A stretch of DNA of 43,089 nt from Campylobacteraceae bacterium (GCA_027081405.1 JALWKO010000051.1:1-43089); one strand, 5' to 3'. Shown: positions 2,907-17,652, numbered from the stretch's first letter. Program-made: numbers and translations. The notes: generated by a model not told the origin, from the letters alone.

Positions 2907-3045
2907 GCGATGTGCTCCTCGAATTGTGATGCCGCAATTATAGGTCAGATAATGTGCTTTTAATTGATGAATTTTTAATCAAAATAGTGATAACATTTTG
3001 CATATACTTCTCCAAAACATTCATTTTTTTCCTAAAGGTTTTGGA
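2907..3045. promoter_or_regulatory. divergent narK / nirA promoter region
   Basis: This AT-rich 139-nt gap separates divergent narK and nirA. A possible -10 for nirA is TATACT at 3003-3008. An imperfect operator-like palindrome, AATTG-N8-CAATT, lies at 2922-2939 just upstream of the narK ribosome site. No clear NtcA or NarL site was seen. Confidence 0.35.
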
Positions 3046-4944
3046 ATGAGACTCGAAGCGATCAGTGCCCGACACACGAAAATCAACAAAATCGAAAAGC
3101 TCAAAGCGACCCGGAGTTACAAAGAGGCCTGGGAAGCGCTGCAGCGCTACGCCCGGGAAGGGTATGACGCGATTCCCAAAGAGGACAAGGATTTTTTCCT
3201 CAAATGTTTTGGGATCTTCGACCGTCCGGCCACGCCGGGGCGGTTCATGATGCGGATCCGGATCCCGGGGGGACGGCTCGAGAGCGCTCAGGCCGAAGCG
3301 CTGGGGGAAATGGCCCGGGAGTTCGGGGAGGACTATATGGATCTGACGACCCGGGCCCAGGTGCAGCTGCGATATCTCAAGATCGAGGATATTCCCACGA
3401 TCATCGATCGGCTGGAGGGGGTGGGGATCACCAGCTGGCAGACCGGGGTGGACAATTTCCGAAACATCGTCACCGATCCCCTCGACGGTCTGGCCTATGA
3501 CAATCTGATCGAAACGGCTCCGCTGATCGATGCGATGCAATCACTCTGGCTCAAAAAGGAGGAGTGGATCGCCGCCATCCCCCGCAAATTCAACACCGCC
3601 ATAGGTGGATCGATGAGCAACCGCTGCAACCTCTTCGCCCACGATTGCTGTTTCGCTCTGGCGGTCCGGGACGGGGAATACGGCTTCAATGTCTACCTGG
3701 GCGGCAAGGTAGGGGCGATCGCCCAGAGTGCGGATGTTTTCGTCACCGAGGAGGATCTGCTGGCTTTCTACGAAGCGTTGATCCGCACCTACAAAAAGTT
3801 CGGCTTTCGGGACAGTCGCAACAAAAACCGTCTGCACTATCTCATCCAGGAGGCGGGGATGCGGACCGTGATCGAGGCGGTGGAGGAGATCGCCGGGCGG
3901 GAGTTCCGCAGGGCGGGGGAGACCCTGGTCAAAACCCCCCGAACCGAAGAGAAAGAGGGGCGGATCCGCCTGCGCGACGGGAGCTGGGCGCTGCATATGG
4001 TGGTCCCCTCGGGGATCTTCAGCGGGATGGCGATGATCCAAGCGGCCCAGACGGCGCGTGCGTACGGAAACGGACTGCTCAACATCTCCACGACCCAGAA
4101 CCTCTACATCCTCGGTGTCCCCACGGAGAAGATCGACGCGGCACTGAGTGCCAAACCCTACGATCGCTACGCCAACCGCTCCACCCCCTATTTCAATCAA
4201 CTGGTCGCCTGTGCCGGGGTGGACCTGTGCCCTTTCGGGGTCATCCCCAACAAGAAAGACGCCATCGAAATGGCACAGTACCTGGGGGATGCGGTTCCTT
4301 TGCCTGAGGACGCGACGATCCGGATGCACTGGTCGGCCTGCGTCAAAGGGTGCGGCGTGCACGAACTGGGGGACATCGGCTTCGTCGGCTGCAAGGTCAA
4401 AGAAAACGGAGAGACCGTCTACGGAGTGCACATCCAGCTGGGGGGCAAATCGACCGCGAGCCAGGAGGAGGCCTACGACATCCTGCGCAGCGTGCCATTG
4501 AGTCGGGCGCGGTTTTATGTGGCTCAGCTGGCACAGGCCTATCGGGATCTGCGACGGGAACGGGAGAGTTTCGAGCGGTTCGAGAGCCGGGTATTGCGGC
4601 GCTACTCCAAAGGGGCGATCGGATTCATCCTCCGATGGAACGTCGATATCGCCGGAAAACTGGGGGCGGGGGAACTCCGCTTCGCCAAAGAGTGGCCCGC
4701 CACCGAAGAGCGCAACGAGATCTTCCTGCTGGGACTCGAGATCTACAAGGCCCTCTCCGGGGAAAACGCCTATCAGGGGACCTACGCCTACAACCCGATC
4801 GAAAAGACCCCGCCCGTACCTCTAGCGAAACGGGTTCCCGCGGTGGGCAAAGAGCTCAGCGACGTGGTGATGAAGATGATCGCCCCGTCGGAAAAACGGT
4901 ACGAAGTCTTTACCGAAGTGCTGTCCGATCTGGGGATCAAATGA
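3046..4944 (+). CDS. nirA: ferredoxin-type assimilatory nitrite reductase (siroheme/4Fe-4S)
   Basis: A 632-residue protein of the nitrite/sulfite reductase family, which reduces nitrite to ammonium with six electrons, usually from ferredoxin. The siroheme-[4Fe-4S] ligands are visible as Cys389-x5-Cys395 and Cys432-x3-Cys436, and the substrate-side motif TTRAQVQLR is present. The start at 3046 (MRLEAISARHTK) is preferred over the open frame upstream because AAAGG precedes it and the upstream residues lack family character. About 130 residues follow the last conserved cofactor region, somewhat longer than many NirA proteins. Divergent narK and the kinase/phosphatase gene make an assimilation cluster. 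A sulfite reductase role is less likely, given NarK next door. Confidence 0.88.
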   Translation: MRLEAISARHTKINKIEKLKATRSYKEAWEALQRYAREGYDAIPKEDKDFFLKCFGIFDRPATPGRFMMRIRIPGGRLESAQAEALGEMAREFGEDYMDLTTRAQVQLRYLKIEDIPTIIDRLEGVGITSWQTGVDNFRNIVTDPLDGLAYDNLIETAPLIDAMQSLWLKKEEWIAAIPRKFNTAIGGSMSNRCNLFAHDCCFALAVRDGEYGFNVYLGGKVGAIAQSADVFVTEEDLLAFYEALIRTYKKFGFRDSRNKNRLHYLIQEAGMRTVIEAVEEIAGREFRRAGETLVKTPRTEEKEGRIRLRDGSWALHMVVPSGIFSGMAMIQAAQTARAYGNGLLNISTTQNLYILGVPTEKIDAALSAKPYDRYANRSTPYFNQLVACAGVDLCPFGVIPNKKDAIEMAQYLGDAVPLPEDATIRMHWSACVKGCGVHELGDIGFVGCKVKENGETVYGVHIQLGGKSTASQEEAYDILRSVPLSRARFYVAQLAQAYRDLRRERESFERFESRVLRRYSKGAIGFILRWNVDIAGKLGAGELRFAKEWPATEERNEIFLLGLEIYKALSGENAYQGTYAYNPIEKTPPVPLAKRVPAVGKELSDVVMKMIAPSEKRYEVFTEVLSDLGIK

Positions 4945-11153: not shown

Positions 11154-11361
11154 CGAGCGGTCCTCTGTTTGGGAATCGTTAGACGCTATTATCCCGAAGT
11201 ATCCATTAGAGTTTGCCGACACGCTACGCAGAAATGGAATGCAAGATCTTTCTGGATCGTACGGTAACAGACACCGAAATCAACATTCTGAGGTTTTGCT
11301 GTTCTGAAAAATGGTACCTTCATTTTAAGTGCTTTTAAAGGGATTTATGAGATGATAACAT

Positions 11362-11370
11362 TGATATTAT
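11362..11370 (+). promoter_or_regulatory. extended -10 promoter of the riboswitch operon
   Basis: TGA directly followed by TATTAT. The predicted start near 11377 falls just ahead of the aptamer at 11382, which supports it. Confidence 0.5.
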
Positions 11371-11381
11371 GGAATATCTTT

Positions 11382-11464
11382 GAGCAGAAAGGCCAAACCC
11401 GTCGCGAGGCGGGGACGGAAAGCCATGGGTCTCCCATCGTGGAGATCGCCAGGTTGCCGATGCG
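11382..11464 (+). promoter_or_regulatory. cyclic-di-GMP-I (GEMM) riboswitch aptamer
   Basis: The conserved GEMM-I order is present: AGGCCAAACC (11390-11399), a hairpin CCCGTC-GCGA-GGCGGG with GNRA loop (11398-11413), GGGACGGAAAGCC (11412-11424), a second arm GTCTC/GAGAT (11429-11446), then GGTTGCCGATG (11452-11462). Relative to the Vibrio Vc2 aptamer as I recall it, the two-base helix flanking AAACC is CC/GG in place of GC/GC, so pairing is conserved by a double change. The base aligned with Vc2 G20, which separates c-di-GMP from cGAMP binders, is G, favouring c-di-GMP. Confidence 0.88.
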
Positions 11465-11580
11465 TTCTTCTTCGAAGCTATGGATCGTTCACGACAGATG
11501 CGTGAACCTCTCTGGCTGAATGCCTCGGTGTCTCCCCACGATGTTGCTACGGTGAGCCTTCATCTATTGTCAAGGAGTGG
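11465..11580 (+). promoter_or_regulatory. expression-platform leader between riboswitch and first gene
   Basis: This 116-nt stretch holds a CTTC/GAAG hairpin (11467-11477) and a perfect 7-bp hairpin GTTCACG/CGTGAAC (11487-11507). CCTT at 11558-11561 could pair with AAGG of the ribosome site at 11572-11575. There is no U-tract, so translational control is more likely than attenuation (inference). Confidence 0.4.
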
Positions 11581-12354
11581 ATGATGAGAGTATTGGTAAC
11601 GGTGTTGGCGACAATTGTGACACTGAGTGTCCAAAGTGTGGCATTCGAGATCAAAAATCTGGCGCAGGCCGTCAACGAAGCGGGACGTCAAAGGATGCTC
11701 ACCCAACGGATGCTCAAAGACTACGCGATGATCGGGATGGGGAATCAGTTCGGGAACCCCGTTCAGGATCTCAATCGAACAATACAGACCTTTGAAGAGC
11801 ATCTCAAAGCGTTGCGTTCCTTTGCCACCGACCCTGAAACGGTAAAAAGTCTCGAAGCGCAGCGAAATCTCTGGGATCAGATCCGTCCCAAACTCTTACA
11901 GAAACCGACCAAAAAAGAGGCGCAAACTCTCCAGAAGGAGCTGGACAAGCTTCTCAAAGCGGCAGATTTGACGACACGGCTTTTTGCCAAACAAACGGGG
12001 AAAAAGTCGGGGAAACTCATCAACATCTCCGGTCGGCAACGGATGCTCTCCCAGCGGATGGCGAATCTGTATATGCTGAAGGCCTGGGGGGTCGAAGACC
12101 CCCAATTCAAGGACAAGCTTCAAGCTGCGATCCAACTTTTCGGCGATTCCCTCGATACGCTTATGAAATCGGATCTCAATACTCCGGAAATCGATAAATT
12201 GCTTCACAGAGTCAAAAACAATTTCATGTTTTTTCAGATTATGAGCCGATCGTCGAATCGTTTTATTCCGTCGTTGATTTACGAAAAATCCAACGAGATT
12301 CTAAAAGACATGAACACCGTGACAGGCTTGTACGCTAAGCAAAAAGCCCGGTGA
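11581..12354 (+). CDS. secreted PilJ/NarX-like type IV pili MCP-N-domain protein (paralogue 1)
   Basis: A 257-residue protein with a Sec signal peptide (residues 1-21, ending SVA) and no other membrane segment, so periplasmic. It carries two copies of a helix motif: AGRQRMLTQRM (34-44) and SGRQRMLSQRM (150-160). The motif is that of the PilJ N-terminal / NarX sensor domain; NarX binds nitrate with the Arg of AGSLRMQSYR, which aligns with Arg38 and Arg154. The rest is predicted helical. AAGGAG precedes two adjacent ATG codons; the second (11584) has better spacing. It is the first gene of the c-di-GMP-riboswitch operon. A ligand-binding or accessory sensor role is inferred; no enzyme motif was seen. 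Confidence 0.85.
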   Translation: MMRVLVTVLATIVTLSVQSVAFEIKNLAQAVNEAGRQRMLTQRMLKDYAMIGMGNQFGNPVQDLNRTIQTFEEHLKALRSFATDPETVKSLEAQRNLWDQIRPKLLQKPTKKEAQTLQKELDKLLKAADLTTRLFAKQTGKKSGKLINISGRQRMLSQRMANLYMLKAWGVEDPQFKDKLQAAIQLFGDSLDTLMKSDLNTPEIDKLLHRVKNNFMFFQIMSRSSNRFIPSLIYEKSNEILKDMNTVTGLYAKQKAR

Positions 12355-12394
12355 TTGGATACAATAATCCCACGAATAGGCAAAGGAGAAAGAA

Positions 12395-13210
12395 ATGCGA
12401 AGAACCCGTATCTTGGGAGTGTTTGCCGTGGCGGCTCTCTTGGTGACGAATATTCCGGTGTCCGCGGAGCAACCGCACAATCCCGTGAAGGTCAATGAAT
12501 TGGTCAAAAAAGACGCGATTCGACTGATCGATATCGCCGGGAGACAGCGGATGCTTTCGCAGCGGATCGCCAAAGACTATCTCTATCTTGGGAAGCATAT
12601 CGCTACCGACAAGGCGCGTAAAGAGCTCAAAGCTTCCCTGGAAGAGTTTCGCGCCAATCTGGCCAAACTCGAAGAGATGATCAACGATCCGGAGATCAAA
12701 AATCTTCTGGCCTTTGTCAAACTGAGCTACAACGAACTTCTCGATACGATCAAAAAGCCTTTTGATATCAACAATGCCCAATTGGTGCTCGATTTGAGTG
12801 AATCGATGCTGGAGGGTAGCCAATACATTGTCGACAGTCTCAAGAAAAAAGCCAATGTCAAAGAATCGAAGATCGTGGCGACAGCAGGGAAGGAGCGGAT
12901 GCTTTCCCAACGGATCGCAAAATATTATCTTGCCTATCAAGCGGGGATCAAAGACAAAAACACCGTCGATCAGATGCGTGCGGCGGTCAAGGAATTTTCC
13001 GAAAAGCTCAAAACGTTGATGAACAATCCCGATAATACCGCCACGATCAACCAAAAACTGGCTCAAGTGGATAAATTGTGGAAAATTGTTTATAAATTCT
13101 ACCTCAATATCGAAAAAGGGGGATTGCCGTTTATCGTCTATACGACGACCAATGACATTACGCAGAAAATGGATGAAATTACGAAACTGTACATCAAGCG
13201 TTACAAATAA
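12395..13210 (+). CDS. secreted PilJ/NarX-like protein (paralogue 2)
   Basis: A 271-residue protein with a signal peptide (about residues 1-24, ending VSA) and a helical mature part. The duplicated P-box-like motif appears as AGRQRMLSQRI (48-58) and AGKERMLSQRI (164-174), each followed by KDYLYL or KYYLAY. This is strongly similar in plan to the upstream gene and likely arose by tandem duplication. AAAGGAG precedes the ATG. The 40-nt gap contains TACAAT (12360-12365), a possible internal promoter that would escape the riboswitch. Periplasmic location is inferred. The ligand is unknown; nitrate or nitrite is a guess from the NarX resemblance. Confidence 0.85.
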   Translation: MRRTRILGVFAVAALLVTNIPVSAEQPHNPVKVNELVKKDAIRLIDIAGRQRMLSQRIAKDYLYLGKHIATDKARKELKASLEEFRANLAKLEEMINDPEIKNLLAFVKLSYNELLDTIKKPFDINNAQLVLDLSESMLEGSQYIVDSLKKKANVKESKIVATAGKERMLSQRIAKYYLAYQAGIKDKNTVDQMRAAVKEFSEKLKTLMNNPDNTATINQKLAQVDKLWKIVYKFYLNIEKGGLPFIVYTTTNDITQKMDEITKLYIKRYK

Positions 13211-13222
13211 GAAGGACCGTCC

Positions 13223-13987
13223 ATGAAAAAAACACTCTTCGTTCTTTTCGTCGTAGTGTATTCGCTTGTTTCAACGACTGCCGACGCGGCGACGCGTGCG
13301 GAGGTCAATATCCTGGAAGCGACCGAAAACATCCGTTTCATCAGTCAGCGACTGACAAAAAACTACCTCTATCTCTTTGCCAATCCGTTAAAAATCGAGA
13401 TCAAAAAGCAACTTCGCTTAGATCTGAACGAACTGGTGGACAATATTCGTTCAATTTCCCTGAGTACCAACGATGAAGACACCAAAAATATTTTGGAGTT
13501 TCTTACCTACAGCAAAAACCAGATCGAAGCGTTGATTTCCAAAAAACCGAGTAAAGAAAACGCCGCGTTGATGCTTGATTACAGCGAAACCCTTCTAGAA
13601 GGGGCCAATTCCATCGCCAAAGCACATCAATATACCTTTACCCCCAGTGAAAAAATGCTCATTTTGAGTAAAAAGCTCAATTTCCTCGTTGAACGGGCGG
13701 CGAAATATTATATGGCTTTGGGGATCGGACTCGGGACCGATATCAATCACCAACAAATGAACGAGGCGATCCGGAATTTCGATGCGGATCTCAAAACGTT
13801 GGAGGCGTACGAGTATCCGGTAAAGTTGCAGAAAAAACGGGATCAACTTCTCCGGTTCTGGAAGGTGACAAAAGGGTTTTTCCCCCGTTTGGATAAGGTC
13901 TTCGCTTCCAACATCATGTGGCTTTCGACCGACAAACTCGAGCGTCTGACCGAAAACTTCGTTATCTACCATCGTAAGCATCAGTAA
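13223..13987 (+). CDS. secreted PilJ-like protein, divergent (paralogue 3)
   Basis: A 254-residue protein with a signal peptide (about 1-22, ending ADA). It shares the size and helical plan of the two genes before it, and keeps one recognisable motif, ATENIRFISQRL (33-44), where the Gly and the first Arg are lost but the Arg aligned with the NarX ligand-binding Arg remains. The second motif (near residue 145, EKMLILSKKL) is eroded. A 12-nt gap separates it from the previous gene, and it has a purine-rich GAAGGA ribosome site. The divergence suggests a different ligand or a structural partner role; both are inference. Confidence 0.8.
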   Translation: MKKTLFVLFVVVYSLVSTTADAATRAEVNILEATENIRFISQRLTKNYLYLFANPLKIEIKKQLRLDLNELVDNIRSISLSTNDEDTKNILEFLTYSKNQIEALISKKPSKENAALMLDYSETLLEGANSIAKAHQYTFTPSEKMLILSKKLNFLVERAAKYYMALGIGLGTDINHQQMNEAIRNFDADLKTLEAYEYPVKLQKKRDQLLRFWKVTKGFFPRLDKVFASNIMWLSTDKLERLTENFVIYHRKHQ

Positions 13988-13997
13988 GGAGTAACGG

Positions 13998-16900
13998 ATG
14001 AAAAAAACGATTCAAAAATTTCTCTTTCTCCTCCTACTGATTTTCGTGCTTGCGGCGGCGGGAGTCCTGGGATGGTATGCCTACAAAGCGTATGGTAAAT
14101 ACCGCTATGACCAGCAGGTGATGCAAAAGGTGTCGGTGATCCAGGATGTCAGCGACCTGATGCAGCTTTTGGGTGATGAGCGGATGCTCAGCGTCCGATT
14201 TTTGGCTGCTGGAAAACGAAACAGCCTCGATACGCTCAAAAATGCTCGTTCGCAAGTTGATTCCATGCTCAAAAAACTCGCCGGTGAGTTACAAAGCTTT
14301 CCCGACGTTCGAGCCAACGTGGCACTTGTCCACGGGGTACAGCAAAACCTCAAATCGATTCGAACCCGCGTCGATGCCATGAGCGTGGAATATCGCGATC
14401 TTTTGGTCGACGGTTTTCAGAAACAAGTCTTTGTTCCCATTCTCAATGTCTATCGGAGTATCGCTTCCCATCTGAACGTTCCCAAGCTCAATGAAGCGAG
14501 TATGTATGGATCCCGTTTGGCGGATCTCTATGCCAATGATGAGCTGGAACAGGATTTCGTCGGCTATCTGCTCGGTTTGAACAAAGCGATGTCCGCGGAA
14601 GATATGAAAATCTGGGATCGGGTCCTTTCGCAAGACGCGCTTCCCGATTTTTCTAAGATCGCTGATGTTGCGCTCCGGCAAAAAGTGGCCAAGATCCTCC
14701 ATGGGGAAGATTTCATCCAGATGCTCAACGACGAACGGGAAAATGTGATTTTCGGGATCGACGACGGGCATTACCCCGTCGATCAGAACCACTGGTTCAC
14801 CCGGACTCAAAAACGCCTGTCCCGTCTCGCGCGTTCGGCTGACACTATTCACGCACAGGCCAAAGGCTATATCGGTGAAAAGGTTTCAAACGACCGCAAC
14901 CGGGCGATTCAGTTTGCCGCCGCGTCGCTTGTCTTTTTGGTCCTTTTCGTCATTTTGGCGATTATCTATCACAACGTCCAAAAAGAGGCCAAACTCCTCG
15001 ACGAAACCCTCAAAAACATCGAGCTCGAACTCGATCCCCAAAAACAGCGCCAACTTCAGCGGATCGTAGAGCGCAGAGACCTTGCGGCGATCTACCGCTT
15101 CATGGCTGAGAGCATCAAGGAAGCCAACGTCGCCAAAGACCTTTTCCTGGCCAATATGTCCCACGAAATCCGTACGCCCCTCAACGGAATCGTCGGATTT
15201 ACGCAGCTGCTCAAAAACACCCCCCTCACTCCCGACCAGGAGGAGTTCGTTTCGGTGATCGAAAGCAGTTCGGAGAACCTCCTTTCGATCGTCAACGACA
15301 TCCTCGATCTCTCCAAGATCAATGCCGACAAGGTGGAACTGGAGGAGATCCCCTTCAACGCCATCGAGAAATTCGAAGACGCAGTGGAATCTTACGGAGC
15401 CAAGGCCGCTCAAAAGAATATCGAGTTTTCGGTATTCGTCGATCCTTCCCTCCCCAAGACTCTGGTGGGGGATCCCACAAAAATCTCCCAGGTTTTGGTC
15501 AACTTGATCAGCAACGCGATCAAATTTACCAGCAGCTACGGTGCTGTGGATGTGATCGTGGAGAAAAAAGAAGAGACCGAGAGTGCCGCCACCGTCTATT
15601 TCGCCGTGCGGGATACCGGGATCGGAATCAGCCCGGAGCAAAAAGAGAAAATTTTCGAAGCCTTTGCACAAGCCGATGTCAGTACGAGTAGGAAATACGG
15701 CGGGACGGGTCTGGGACTGGCGATTTCGAGCAAATTGGTCGAGCGGATGGGCGGGCATCTCGATATCGAGAGTGAAGTGGGCAAAGGGTCGACGTTCTTT
15801 TTCACACTTACGCTGCCAAAAGGAGAGGATCAGGAGCGCCAACTCCCCGACCTGAGCGGATTGCGTACGGCGATGCTCTTGCCCGAGAAAGCCAATATCC
15901 GCCAAAGTGACAAGAATCTGGAAAAATACGTCACCTATTGCGGTGCGGAATATGAGATCCACCGTTACGAAGACGTGTTTGTCCATCCGGCGGACAAGAT
16001 TGCCGACGTCTTTTTCCTCGACCATGCCTATTGTCGTCGGGAAGGGGAATTGGAGCGATTCCTCAACCTCGATGCCAAAATCGTCCTCATCACCACCGGG
16101 CATTTGAAAAAAGAAGCAGAAGAAGTGGTCGATCGGGTGGCAAAAATCATCTACAAACCGGTCAATTTCACCAAAACCCTCCGTGCGATGGAACGGGTCA
16201 AGGATTTACCGCGTCACGCAGCCGCATCCGGAACTGCAGAGAACGAAAACGTAGTGGAAAAATTCGAAGATCTTCGTATTCTCGTCGCCGAAGACAACCC
16301 TATCAACCAAAAATTGATCCGTACGACGCTGGAGCAGTTTGGAGCCGACGTGACTCTGGCGTCCAATGGACAGGAAGCGTTCGATCTGCGCAAACAAAAC
16401 GACTATGACCTGATTTTCATGGATATTCAGATGCCGGTACTCAACGGGATCGACGCCACCAAAGAGATTCTCCATTACGAGCAGATCAACCATCTCAAAC
16501 ATATTCCCATCATCGCTCTGACGGCCAACGCTCTGGCAGGGGATCGAGAGAAATATATGGCAGCGGGAATGGACAATTACATTCCCAAGCCGATCAATAT
16601 CGAGGAACTCCGTGCGATCATTCAGATGTATCATCCCAAGGTGCGGATGATCCCCAAGGAAGAGGCACGAAACGGAGAAGCTCCGGTGGAAGAAACCCAT
16701 GACGAGCCTTCTTCGCAACAGCATCCTTTACCCCAGTCTCAAGGCGAAGGGGTCGAGGTGCGATATGTCCAAGCTCCCGAAGTGTCTGCCGAAACTCCCC
16801 AGAAGCCGGAAGATTACCGAAAGGGTAGCTGGATCCTCTATGTCCGATCTCCTCTGATGGCCAGCTTGTATCGGAAAATCTTGCAACAATTGGGGATCGA

Positions 16901-17147
16901 AACGGTCCAGACGGTTCAGTCCGAGGAAGAACTGATCTCCTTGCTCGATCAAGGAAATGTGGAGTATGCACTGTTGGACGGCGCGATTCTGGGTGGGGAC
17001 GAATGCATTTTGATCGAAAGTATGAAAGAAGAGGGGATTCGCCCCTTTGTCCTCGTTTCTACGGGAGAAAAAGGTGATCACGCCTGTGCCGAAACGGTGG
17101 CTGTGGACCGTTTCGCACACGAAATCAAAAAACATCTCTCCACATAA
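13998..17147 (+). CDS. hybrid sensor histidine kinase with NIT-like periplasmic domain
   Basis: 1049 residues. TM1 at about 8-27; periplasmic helical domain about 40-300 starting with [17 protein letters not shown], typical of nitrate/nitrite-sensing (NIT) domains and echoing the ERMLSQR motif of the three upstream proteins; TM2 about 306-326. Then HisKA with His389 in [12 protein letters not shown], an HATPase domain (N-box [23 protein letters not shown]), a degenerate receiver-like segment (about 615-745), a true receiver with Asp809 in [11 protein letters not shown], and a C-terminal pseudo-receiver after a Pro/Gln-rich linker. AAGGAG precedes the ATG. It is the last gene of the riboswitch operon. 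No response regulator is adjacent, so the phosphoryl acceptor is unknown. Confidence 0.9.
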
Positions 17148-17172
17148 TCAATGCTACCTGGGTCCCATTGAT
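17147..17172. promoter_or_regulatory. palindrome upstream of trxC
   Basis: ATCAATG and CATTGAT are separated by 12 nt that themselves contain ACC/GGT. It sits just after the kinase stop and 16 nt before the trxC -10. It could be a weak terminator or an operator. Confidence 0.35.
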
Positions 17173-17188
17173 CGGGATCGAGGACGGG

Positions 17189-17194
17189 TATAAT
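17189..17194 (+). promoter_or_regulatory. trxC -10 element
   Basis: A perfect TATAAT, with TTGATC 15 nt upstream as a possible -35. The predicted start near 17201 gives a short leader before AAGGAG and the ATG at 17221. Confidence 0.5.
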
Positions 17195-17220
17195 CGTTCC
17201 AAAAAGCGAAGGAGTCGCCG

Positions 17221-17652
17221 ATGGAAACGATCAACGTGGTCTGTCCCCATTGTCTGAAGGTCAACCGCGTACCGAAAAAGGACCACTACTCCAAAGCCAA
17301 CTGCGGCTACTGCAAACGCTCCCTGCTTGATACCCATCCGGTCGACGTGGACGCTCAGGGGTTCGCCCAGTTCGTCCAGCGGAGCGACCTGCCCGTGGTG
17401 GTCGATTTCTGGGCCCCCTGGTGCGGTCCGTGCCGGATGATGGCGCCAGCGTACGAGCAGGCGGCCGCCGCGTTCCCCCTCAAAGCACAGTTCATCAAGC
17501 TCAATACCGAAGCCAACCCTCAGGTCGCGGCGCAGTTCGGGATCCGGTCGATCCCGACGCTGATCGTCTTCAAAGGGGGGCAGCCGGTAGGACAGACAAG
17601 CGGCGCGTTGGGTGCCGATCAGATCGCCGGATGGGTTCGCCAGTATCTCTGA
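17221..17652 (+). CDS. trxC: thioredoxin 2 (zinc-containing)
   Basis: A 143-residue thioredoxin with an extra N-terminal zinc finger (Cys8-x2-Cys11, Cys28-x2-Cys31), which marks the TrxC class, and the active site WCGPC (Cys68, Cys71). The cis-proline loop SIPTL is present. It is a cytoplasmic disulfide reductase, often induced by oxidative stress, and a plausible electron donor for the peroxiredoxin at 8.4 kb. AAGGAG lies 6-8 nt before the ATG. It appears monocistronic, with its own promoter after the sensor-kinase operon. Confidence 0.93.
   Translation: METINVVCPHCLKVNRVPKKDHYSKANCGYCKRSLLDTHPVDVDAQGFAQFVQRSDLPVVVDFWAPWCGPCRMMAPAYEQAAAAFPLKAQFIKLNTEANPQVAAQFGIRSIPTLIVFKGGQPVGQTSGALGADQIAGWVRQYL

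Follow-up and report, generated by a model that had tools for sequence, protein, structure and literature searches.

What would a riboswitch for the biofilm messenger cyclic di-GMP (c-di-GMP) govern when it stands in front of four genes encoding three exported PilJ proteins and a hybrid histidine kinase? This question is raised by a locus within a stretch of 43,089 nucleotides (nt) from a Campylobacteraceae bacterium (GCA_027081405.1 JALWKO010000051.1:1-43089), referred to here as the window, which is contig C51 of the 1.93 Mb genome (99.97% complete) of a deep-sea vent bacterium. In our reading, to which we give a probability of roughly one half, the four genes form a conserved module for periplasmic sensing under a c-di-GMP riboswitch, with nitrate sensed by PilJ1 and PilJ2, which act on the kinase. 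The principal features are listed below, with the evidence for each in brackets.

11383..11462, + strand: c-di-GMP-I (GEMM-I) aptamer (Rfam score, covariation, ligand-choice positions)
11581..12354, + strand: PilJ1 gene (Pfam PilJ, N-box, AlphaFold, matches to NasR and McpN)
12395..13210, + strand: PilJ2 gene (Pfam PilJ, N-box)
13223..13987, + strand: PilJ3 gene (Pfam score below cut-off, no Gly and Arg pair in homologues, tree)
13998..17147, + strand: hybrid histidine kinase gene (Pfam, AlphaFold model of residues 1-375)

The PilJ1 gene starts 118 nt 3' of the aptamer end, and the four genes lie on one strand with gaps of 40, 12 and 10 nt between them, from PilJ1 to the kinase. The first-pass annotation had described this layout as one operon with gaps of 10-40 nt behind the aptamer, and the gene arrangement supports it.

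Aptamer and expected ligand

The best model obtained with cmscan is c-di-GMP-I-GGC (RF03167), with 66.2 bits as opposed to a gathering score of 59 and an E-value of 1.3e-13. In the alignment of 16 homologues, standard pairs occupy 97.6% of the cells, both sides have changed in 9 of the 18 pairs, which was equalled in none of 500 shuffles, and helices P2 and P3 are backed by covariation. Score and covariation together bear out the GEMM-I assignment made from the sequence beforehand. The ligand-choice positions 20, 47 and 92 hold G, A and C, which are invariant as G10, A37 and C75 in 16 aptamers (that of the window and 15 relatives); we take these bases to correspond to G20, A47 and C92 of Vc2, the '92'-equivalent C of the window aptamer being position 11457. 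The Vc2 positions were mapped with the numbering used for the cyclic GMP-AMP (cGAMP) riboswitch (PMC6274999) and with general background on the class. With G, A and C at these positions in 16 copies, c-di-GMP is the expected ligand, as first proposed, and not cGAMP; the window aptamer is thus predicted to have ordinary c-di-GMP specificity.

Three other assignments were considered and rejected. The cGAMP type (GEMM-Ib) needs an A at '20', where all 16 copies have G. Membership of the c-di-GMP-I-GGC variant was set aside, since the variant consensus has a G after the P2 closing pair, at the A47 equivalent, where the window has an A; the variant-defining base was inferred by comparing the consensus lines of the two Rfam models. 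A new ligand recognised through a flipped G20 was also considered, as the P2 closing pair is C-G here and G-C in the consensus, but G20 precedes this pair and is unchanged, and the flip is ordinary covariation, with U-A in one relative. The element resembles the c-di-GMP-I riboswitches (RF01051/RF03167) in its fold, its above-cut-off score and its ligand-choice bases, whereas it differs in that the GGC model fits best despite the A, and in its target, a sensory operon. The source genome contains four c-di-GMP-I aptamers and encodes 16 GGDEF domains, so that c-di-GMP can be made.

Exported PilJ proteins and hybrid kinase

PilJ1 and PilJ2 match the Pfam family PilJ (PF13675, cut-off 26.6) with 87.3 bits (9.5e-25) and 71.9 bits (5.8e-20), whereas PilJ3, with 13.9 bits, remains under the cut-off. 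All three begin with a signal-peptide-like segment, as read from the sequence, and are best described as exported tandem-PilJ proteins of which PilJ3 has diverged. The window proteins have Sec-like signals, unlike a pair of PilJ paralogues encoded elsewhere in this genome (L074:3182-4000; L075:6460-7278), whose signals resemble those of twin-arginine translocation (RRDLLK, RRDFLK).

The N-box was defined for nitrate-binding PilJ domains from McpN, a nitrate chemoreceptor of Pseudomonas aeruginosa (Martin-Mora et al., PMC6381276), and was searched for here as [IVL]-[ND]-x-A-G-x-Q-R-M-L-[ST]-Q. Scanned in six frames, the window has an exact N-box only at 11671 (PilJ1 repeat 1) and at 12527 (PilJ2 repeat 1); the second repeats score 9/10 in PilJ1 (at 12019) and 8/10 in PilJ2. 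Among the module copies, the Gly and Arg of repeat 1 are kept in 49 of 57 for PilJ1, a bin that includes diverged proteins such as gammaproteobacterial ones, and in 41 of 46 for PilJ2, with the same numbers in repeat 2. The repeat 1 N-box of PilJ2 scores 10/10 in 37 of 46 copies, and a score of 9-10/10 is kept in 47 of 57 copies of PilJ1. In PilJ3, the Gly and Arg pair was found in neither repeat of any of 55 homologues. P-box-like motifs had been ascribed to all three secreted proteins; the motif is intact in PilJ1 and PilJ2, but it is lost in PilJ3.

The AlphaFold model of PilJ1 is a tandem pair of four-helix bundles (mean predicted local distance difference test score, pLDDT, 92), whose best match in the PDB by TM-score over the full chain is NasR (4akk, TMq 0.62), while single repeats match the ligand-binding domain of McpN (6gcv) with a TMt of about 0.75, 2.4-2.5 Å and 24% identity; the Foldseek E-values of these PilJ1 matches are modest (> 0.001). 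The resemblance to McpN thus lies in the fold of each repeat and in the exact N-box in repeat 1 of PilJ1 and PilJ2. McpN works as a homodimer, whereas each of the window proteins is a soluble exported chain with a pair of domains and with neither a membrane anchor nor a signalling domain. NasR, the best match of both PilJ1 and the kinase sensor, likewise has two four-helix bundles per chain, but NasR acts in the cytoplasm as an antiterminator and carries an ANTAR domain, and PilJ1 is stand-alone and exported.

The kinase is built of a transmembrane segment, a periplasmic NIT domain, a second transmembrane segment, HisKA, HATPase_c and receiver(s). Pfam assigns NIT (43.8 bits, cut-off 24.9), HisKA, HATPase_c and Response_reg, in agreement with the NIT-like hybrid histidine kinase annotated earlier; no HPt domain was found in it with Pfam. 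The AlphaFold model of residues 1-375 matches NasR with an E-value of 3.4e-6. The second NIT arginine is present in most of 29 kinase homologues and the first (R62, 'ER') varies outside the genus, at positions that we presume to correspond to the nitrate-site arginines of NasR. PilJ1 and PilJ2 share the P-box G-x-x-R chemistry of NarX and NarQ, but the sensor of the window kinase is a NIT domain, not one of the NarX type, and the kinase has a hybrid architecture that includes receiver(s).

The order PilJ1-(PilJ1)-PilJ2-PilJ3-kinase recurs in congeners, in other genera and on more than 25 other Campylobacterota contigs, a few of which are cut and hold only a partial module, so that the synteny expected in relatives exists. 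The closest named records to the window are Nitratifractor and 'Campylobacteraceae' metagenome-assembled genomes (MAGs), and Nitratifractor salsuginis DSM 16511, which is available in culture, has the full module together with the aptamer. In the same genome, contig C71 carries a diverged copy in the order A-B-C-kinase, in which proteins A, B and C have PilJ1, PilJ2 and PilJ3 as their best BLAST matches. In the phylogenetic tree, A clusters with PilJ1 and C with PilJ3, both with a support of 100/100, and PilJ2 and B lie in between; as the branches are long, this grouping is support rather than proof. PilJ3 joins the third genes of other modules in the tree, is a degenerate homologue in almost every module, and its profile matches in 20 of 397 genomes of the phylum, most of them from the family of the window. 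Judged by gene order and sequence, the four genes are shown to be co-inherited, as an exported tandem-PilJ trio in fixed order with a NIT hybrid kinase, and this sensory module is conserved across the bacterial family. A PilJ1-PilJ3 pair without such a kinase adjoining was observed in gammaproteobacterial MAGs (L252, L255-L259).

Occurrence of the aptamer and signals for control

An aptamer stands 5' of PilJ1 in 13 of 30 PilJ1 loci from several genera and, in the named set, in 12 of 45 clusters with upstream sequence, the two sets overlapping in part. L049 retains a decayed remnant at the same place (17 bits), and several congeners have no aptamer 5' of PilJ1. These patchy counts point to the sensory module as the conserved core and to c-di-GMP control as a recurrent, lineage-specific layer that has been lost and kept. 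Of 105 aptamers in the family whose downstream gene was read, 22 lie immediately 5' of a gene for a tandem-PilJ protein or a NIT kinase, some of these genes being diverged paralogues with 20-40% identity. Chance would give fewer than 1 in 105, a rough expectation that takes such genes to number about twelve in every 1,900 or so, with orthologues that are not independent. Many of the other aptamers precede genes whose products resemble lipoproteins, adhesins and further secreted proteins, as judged by reading, with annotation for part of them; two further aptamers of the source genome lie directly before the genes of a giant Calx-beta/cadherin protein and of an SdrD_B protein.

Other arrangements were encountered alongside. 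A second operon type (L190:515-6260, L158:4607-9941) consists of a c-di-GMP-I aptamer, a small PAS protein, a further protein, which in L190 has a weak HPt match, a NIT hybrid kinase and a receiver. L174:5198-6322 holds a pair of c-di-GMP-I aptamers, and a separate diverged tandem-PilJ gene follows immediately behind each of them. In L134, L137 and L144, such an aptamer lies 260-280 nt before a pdxJ-like gene (named by eye), in L137 near a PilJ module. The aptamer on contig C90 of the source genome (L072:6890-6973, minus strand) has no clear downstream gene and points at the 3' side of dnaJ, where it may possibly act antisense.

The leader of the window contains three further candidate features.

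11362..11370, + strand: candidate extended -10, TGa TATTAT (sequence reading, consensus only)
11456..11529, + strand: candidate expression platform (single-sequence folding only)
11560..11585, + strand: Shine-Dalgarno sequence (AAGGAG, 11572-11577) and start codon in a predicted hairpin (energy model only)

The extended -10 claimed 5' of the aptamer is present as a consensus match, and TATAAT-like boxes occur 5' of the aptamer at the corresponding place in several relatives; a search for promoter-like sites on the + strand of 11200-17450 found none. By single-sequence folding, 11456-11467, which includes the C92 equivalent, could pair with about 11518-11529, and this anti-aptamer stem would exclude the ligand-bound aptamer. 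The Shine-Dalgarno sequence is, in the energy model, also complementary to the 5' leader at 11377-11383. An intrinsic terminator was rejected as the expression platform, as none is evident between the aptamer and the start codon and terminator-like sites in 11200-17450 are no more numerous than in shuffles.

Nitrate as signal and competing readings

The published N-box, exact in PilJ1 and PilJ2 as two of the three proteins, makes nitrate the leading candidate ligand, as had been suggested. The genome encodes the periplasmic nitrate reductase NapA, so that periplasmic nitrate would be a relevant signal, and Nitratifractor salsuginis, a vent isolate (E9I37-1T), grows by nitrate respiration (PMC3156401).

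On the reading that we favour, c-di-GMP would determine the dose in which a periplasmic module for nitrate sensing is made. Binding of c-di-GMP to the leader would change the expression of the whole operon, and PilJ1 and PilJ2 would serve as soluble periplasmic nitrate receptors. The two bundles of one chain would form, as in NasR, a site that in McpN and NarQ arises by dimerisation, while PilJ3, with its site lost, would not bind nitrate but would have a structural or regulatory role as a partner. The receptors may contact the NIT domain of the kinase, whose phosphorelay would then be set by the dose of the receptors and by their occupancy with ligand, by analogy with the accessory receptors of TorT-TorS or NreA-NreB, in which a soluble receptor acts on a sensor kinase. 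Only this proposed principle is alike: the TorT-type receptor fold is that of a periplasmic binding protein and NreA is a cytoplasmic GAF protein, unlike the tandem PilJ proteins here. NreA is also treated in PMC8199190. Through the riboswitch, nitrate sensing would become tied to the attached state (with c-di-GMP high or low), alongside adhesins behind aptamers of the same class.

A more specific form of this model is tentative, and we regard it as possible rather than probable: PilJ1 and PilJ2, as pseudo-dimeric receptors in one chain, and a binding-dead PilJ3 would assemble on the NIT hybrid kinase, and c-di-GMP would gate the synthesis of the sensor and thereby join life on surfaces to the sensing of electron acceptors, in a class of multi-protein periplasmic sensor so far undescribed. 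The first-pass annotation knew of no c-di-GMP-controlled system of P-box proteins with a NIT kinase, and in the open literature, searched by title and abstract with subscription papers outside, none was found either: neither riboswitch with PilJ and histidine kinase, nor Sulfurovum with a cyclic di-GMP riboswitch, nor soluble periplasmic PilJ/NIT receptors led to a description of this unit. If the model is true, stand-alone exported PilJ receptors would join the known modes of nitrate sensing, c-di-GMP would control the making of an input sensor and not an output such as adhesion or motility, and attachment would be linked, in vent bacteria that reduce nitrate, to the electron acceptor that is chosen.

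Several points weigh against nitrate sensing under c-di-GMP control. In PilJ1 as in PilJ2, the N-box of repeat 2 is imperfect, and PilJ of P. aeruginosa, which has two consecutive PilJ domains without an N-box, does not bind nitrate (PMC6381276). As R62 varies outside the genus, the kinase itself may lack the capacity to bind nitrate, and contact between receptors and kinase is a proposal from synteny. The aptamer is missing from 33 of the 45 module clusters with upstream sequence, and some module-bearing genomes gave no match to the aptamer model anywhere, which makes c-di-GMP control optional. Folding with and without the aptamer gave no consistent change in Shine-Dalgarno accessibility in the window and the relatives folded, and the sign of the switch derived from folding was therefore set aside. 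Finally, four congeners (L042, L043, L044, L048) have an extended -10-like TGATACAAT/TGATAAAAT between the aptamer and PilJ1, which might serve as a second promoter and so circumvent the switch.

The strongest alternative, unlikely in our estimate yet of real weight, is that a genuine riboswitch governs the operon while its PilJ proteins recognise a ligand other than nitrate (a different small anion, a peptide or a quinone-like compound) and report an unrelated periplasmic signal. The behaviour of P. aeruginosa PilJ and the variable first arginine of the kinase speak for it, as does the lack of an N-box in the C71 copy and in GEMM-controlled C27-like paralogues; the exact and widely kept N-boxes of PilJ1 and PilJ2, NapA in the genome and the nitrate respiration of N. 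salsuginis argue for nitrate instead. A role of the soluble PilJ proteins as decoys or antagonists, in which they would titrate nitrate or compete with the kinase sensor and the riboswitch would lower sensitivity, is improbable: the NasR-type fold shared by receptor and kinase sensor makes competition or hetero-assembly conceivable, and the degenerate PilJ3 of almost every module would fit, but three distinct receptor types that keep a strict order and have duplicated together are more suggestive of an assembled unit than of a mere sink, and the gammaproteobacterial pair has no adjoining kinase. That the aptamer mainly serves another upstream-initiated RNA, with the module promoter between aptamer and PilJ1 and a chance or decaying association, is very improbable despite the box 3' of the aptamer in the four congeners and the aptamers decayed or absent in L049 and others, as no such box was seen in the window or L045/L046 and the association, found in several genera and with diverged paralogues, is far above the rough chance level.

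The neighbourhood had been read as a further hint at nitrate through narK and nirA. A nirA-like gene (NIR_SIR, 2998-4941, + strand) and a major facilitator superfamily (MFS) transporter gene (1632-2906, - strand) do lie 7-9 kb from the unit, but they are not part of the conserved block in the relatives read and were rejected as a linked unit; the module is flanked in relatives by an aminotransferase gene and often by one for thioredoxin.

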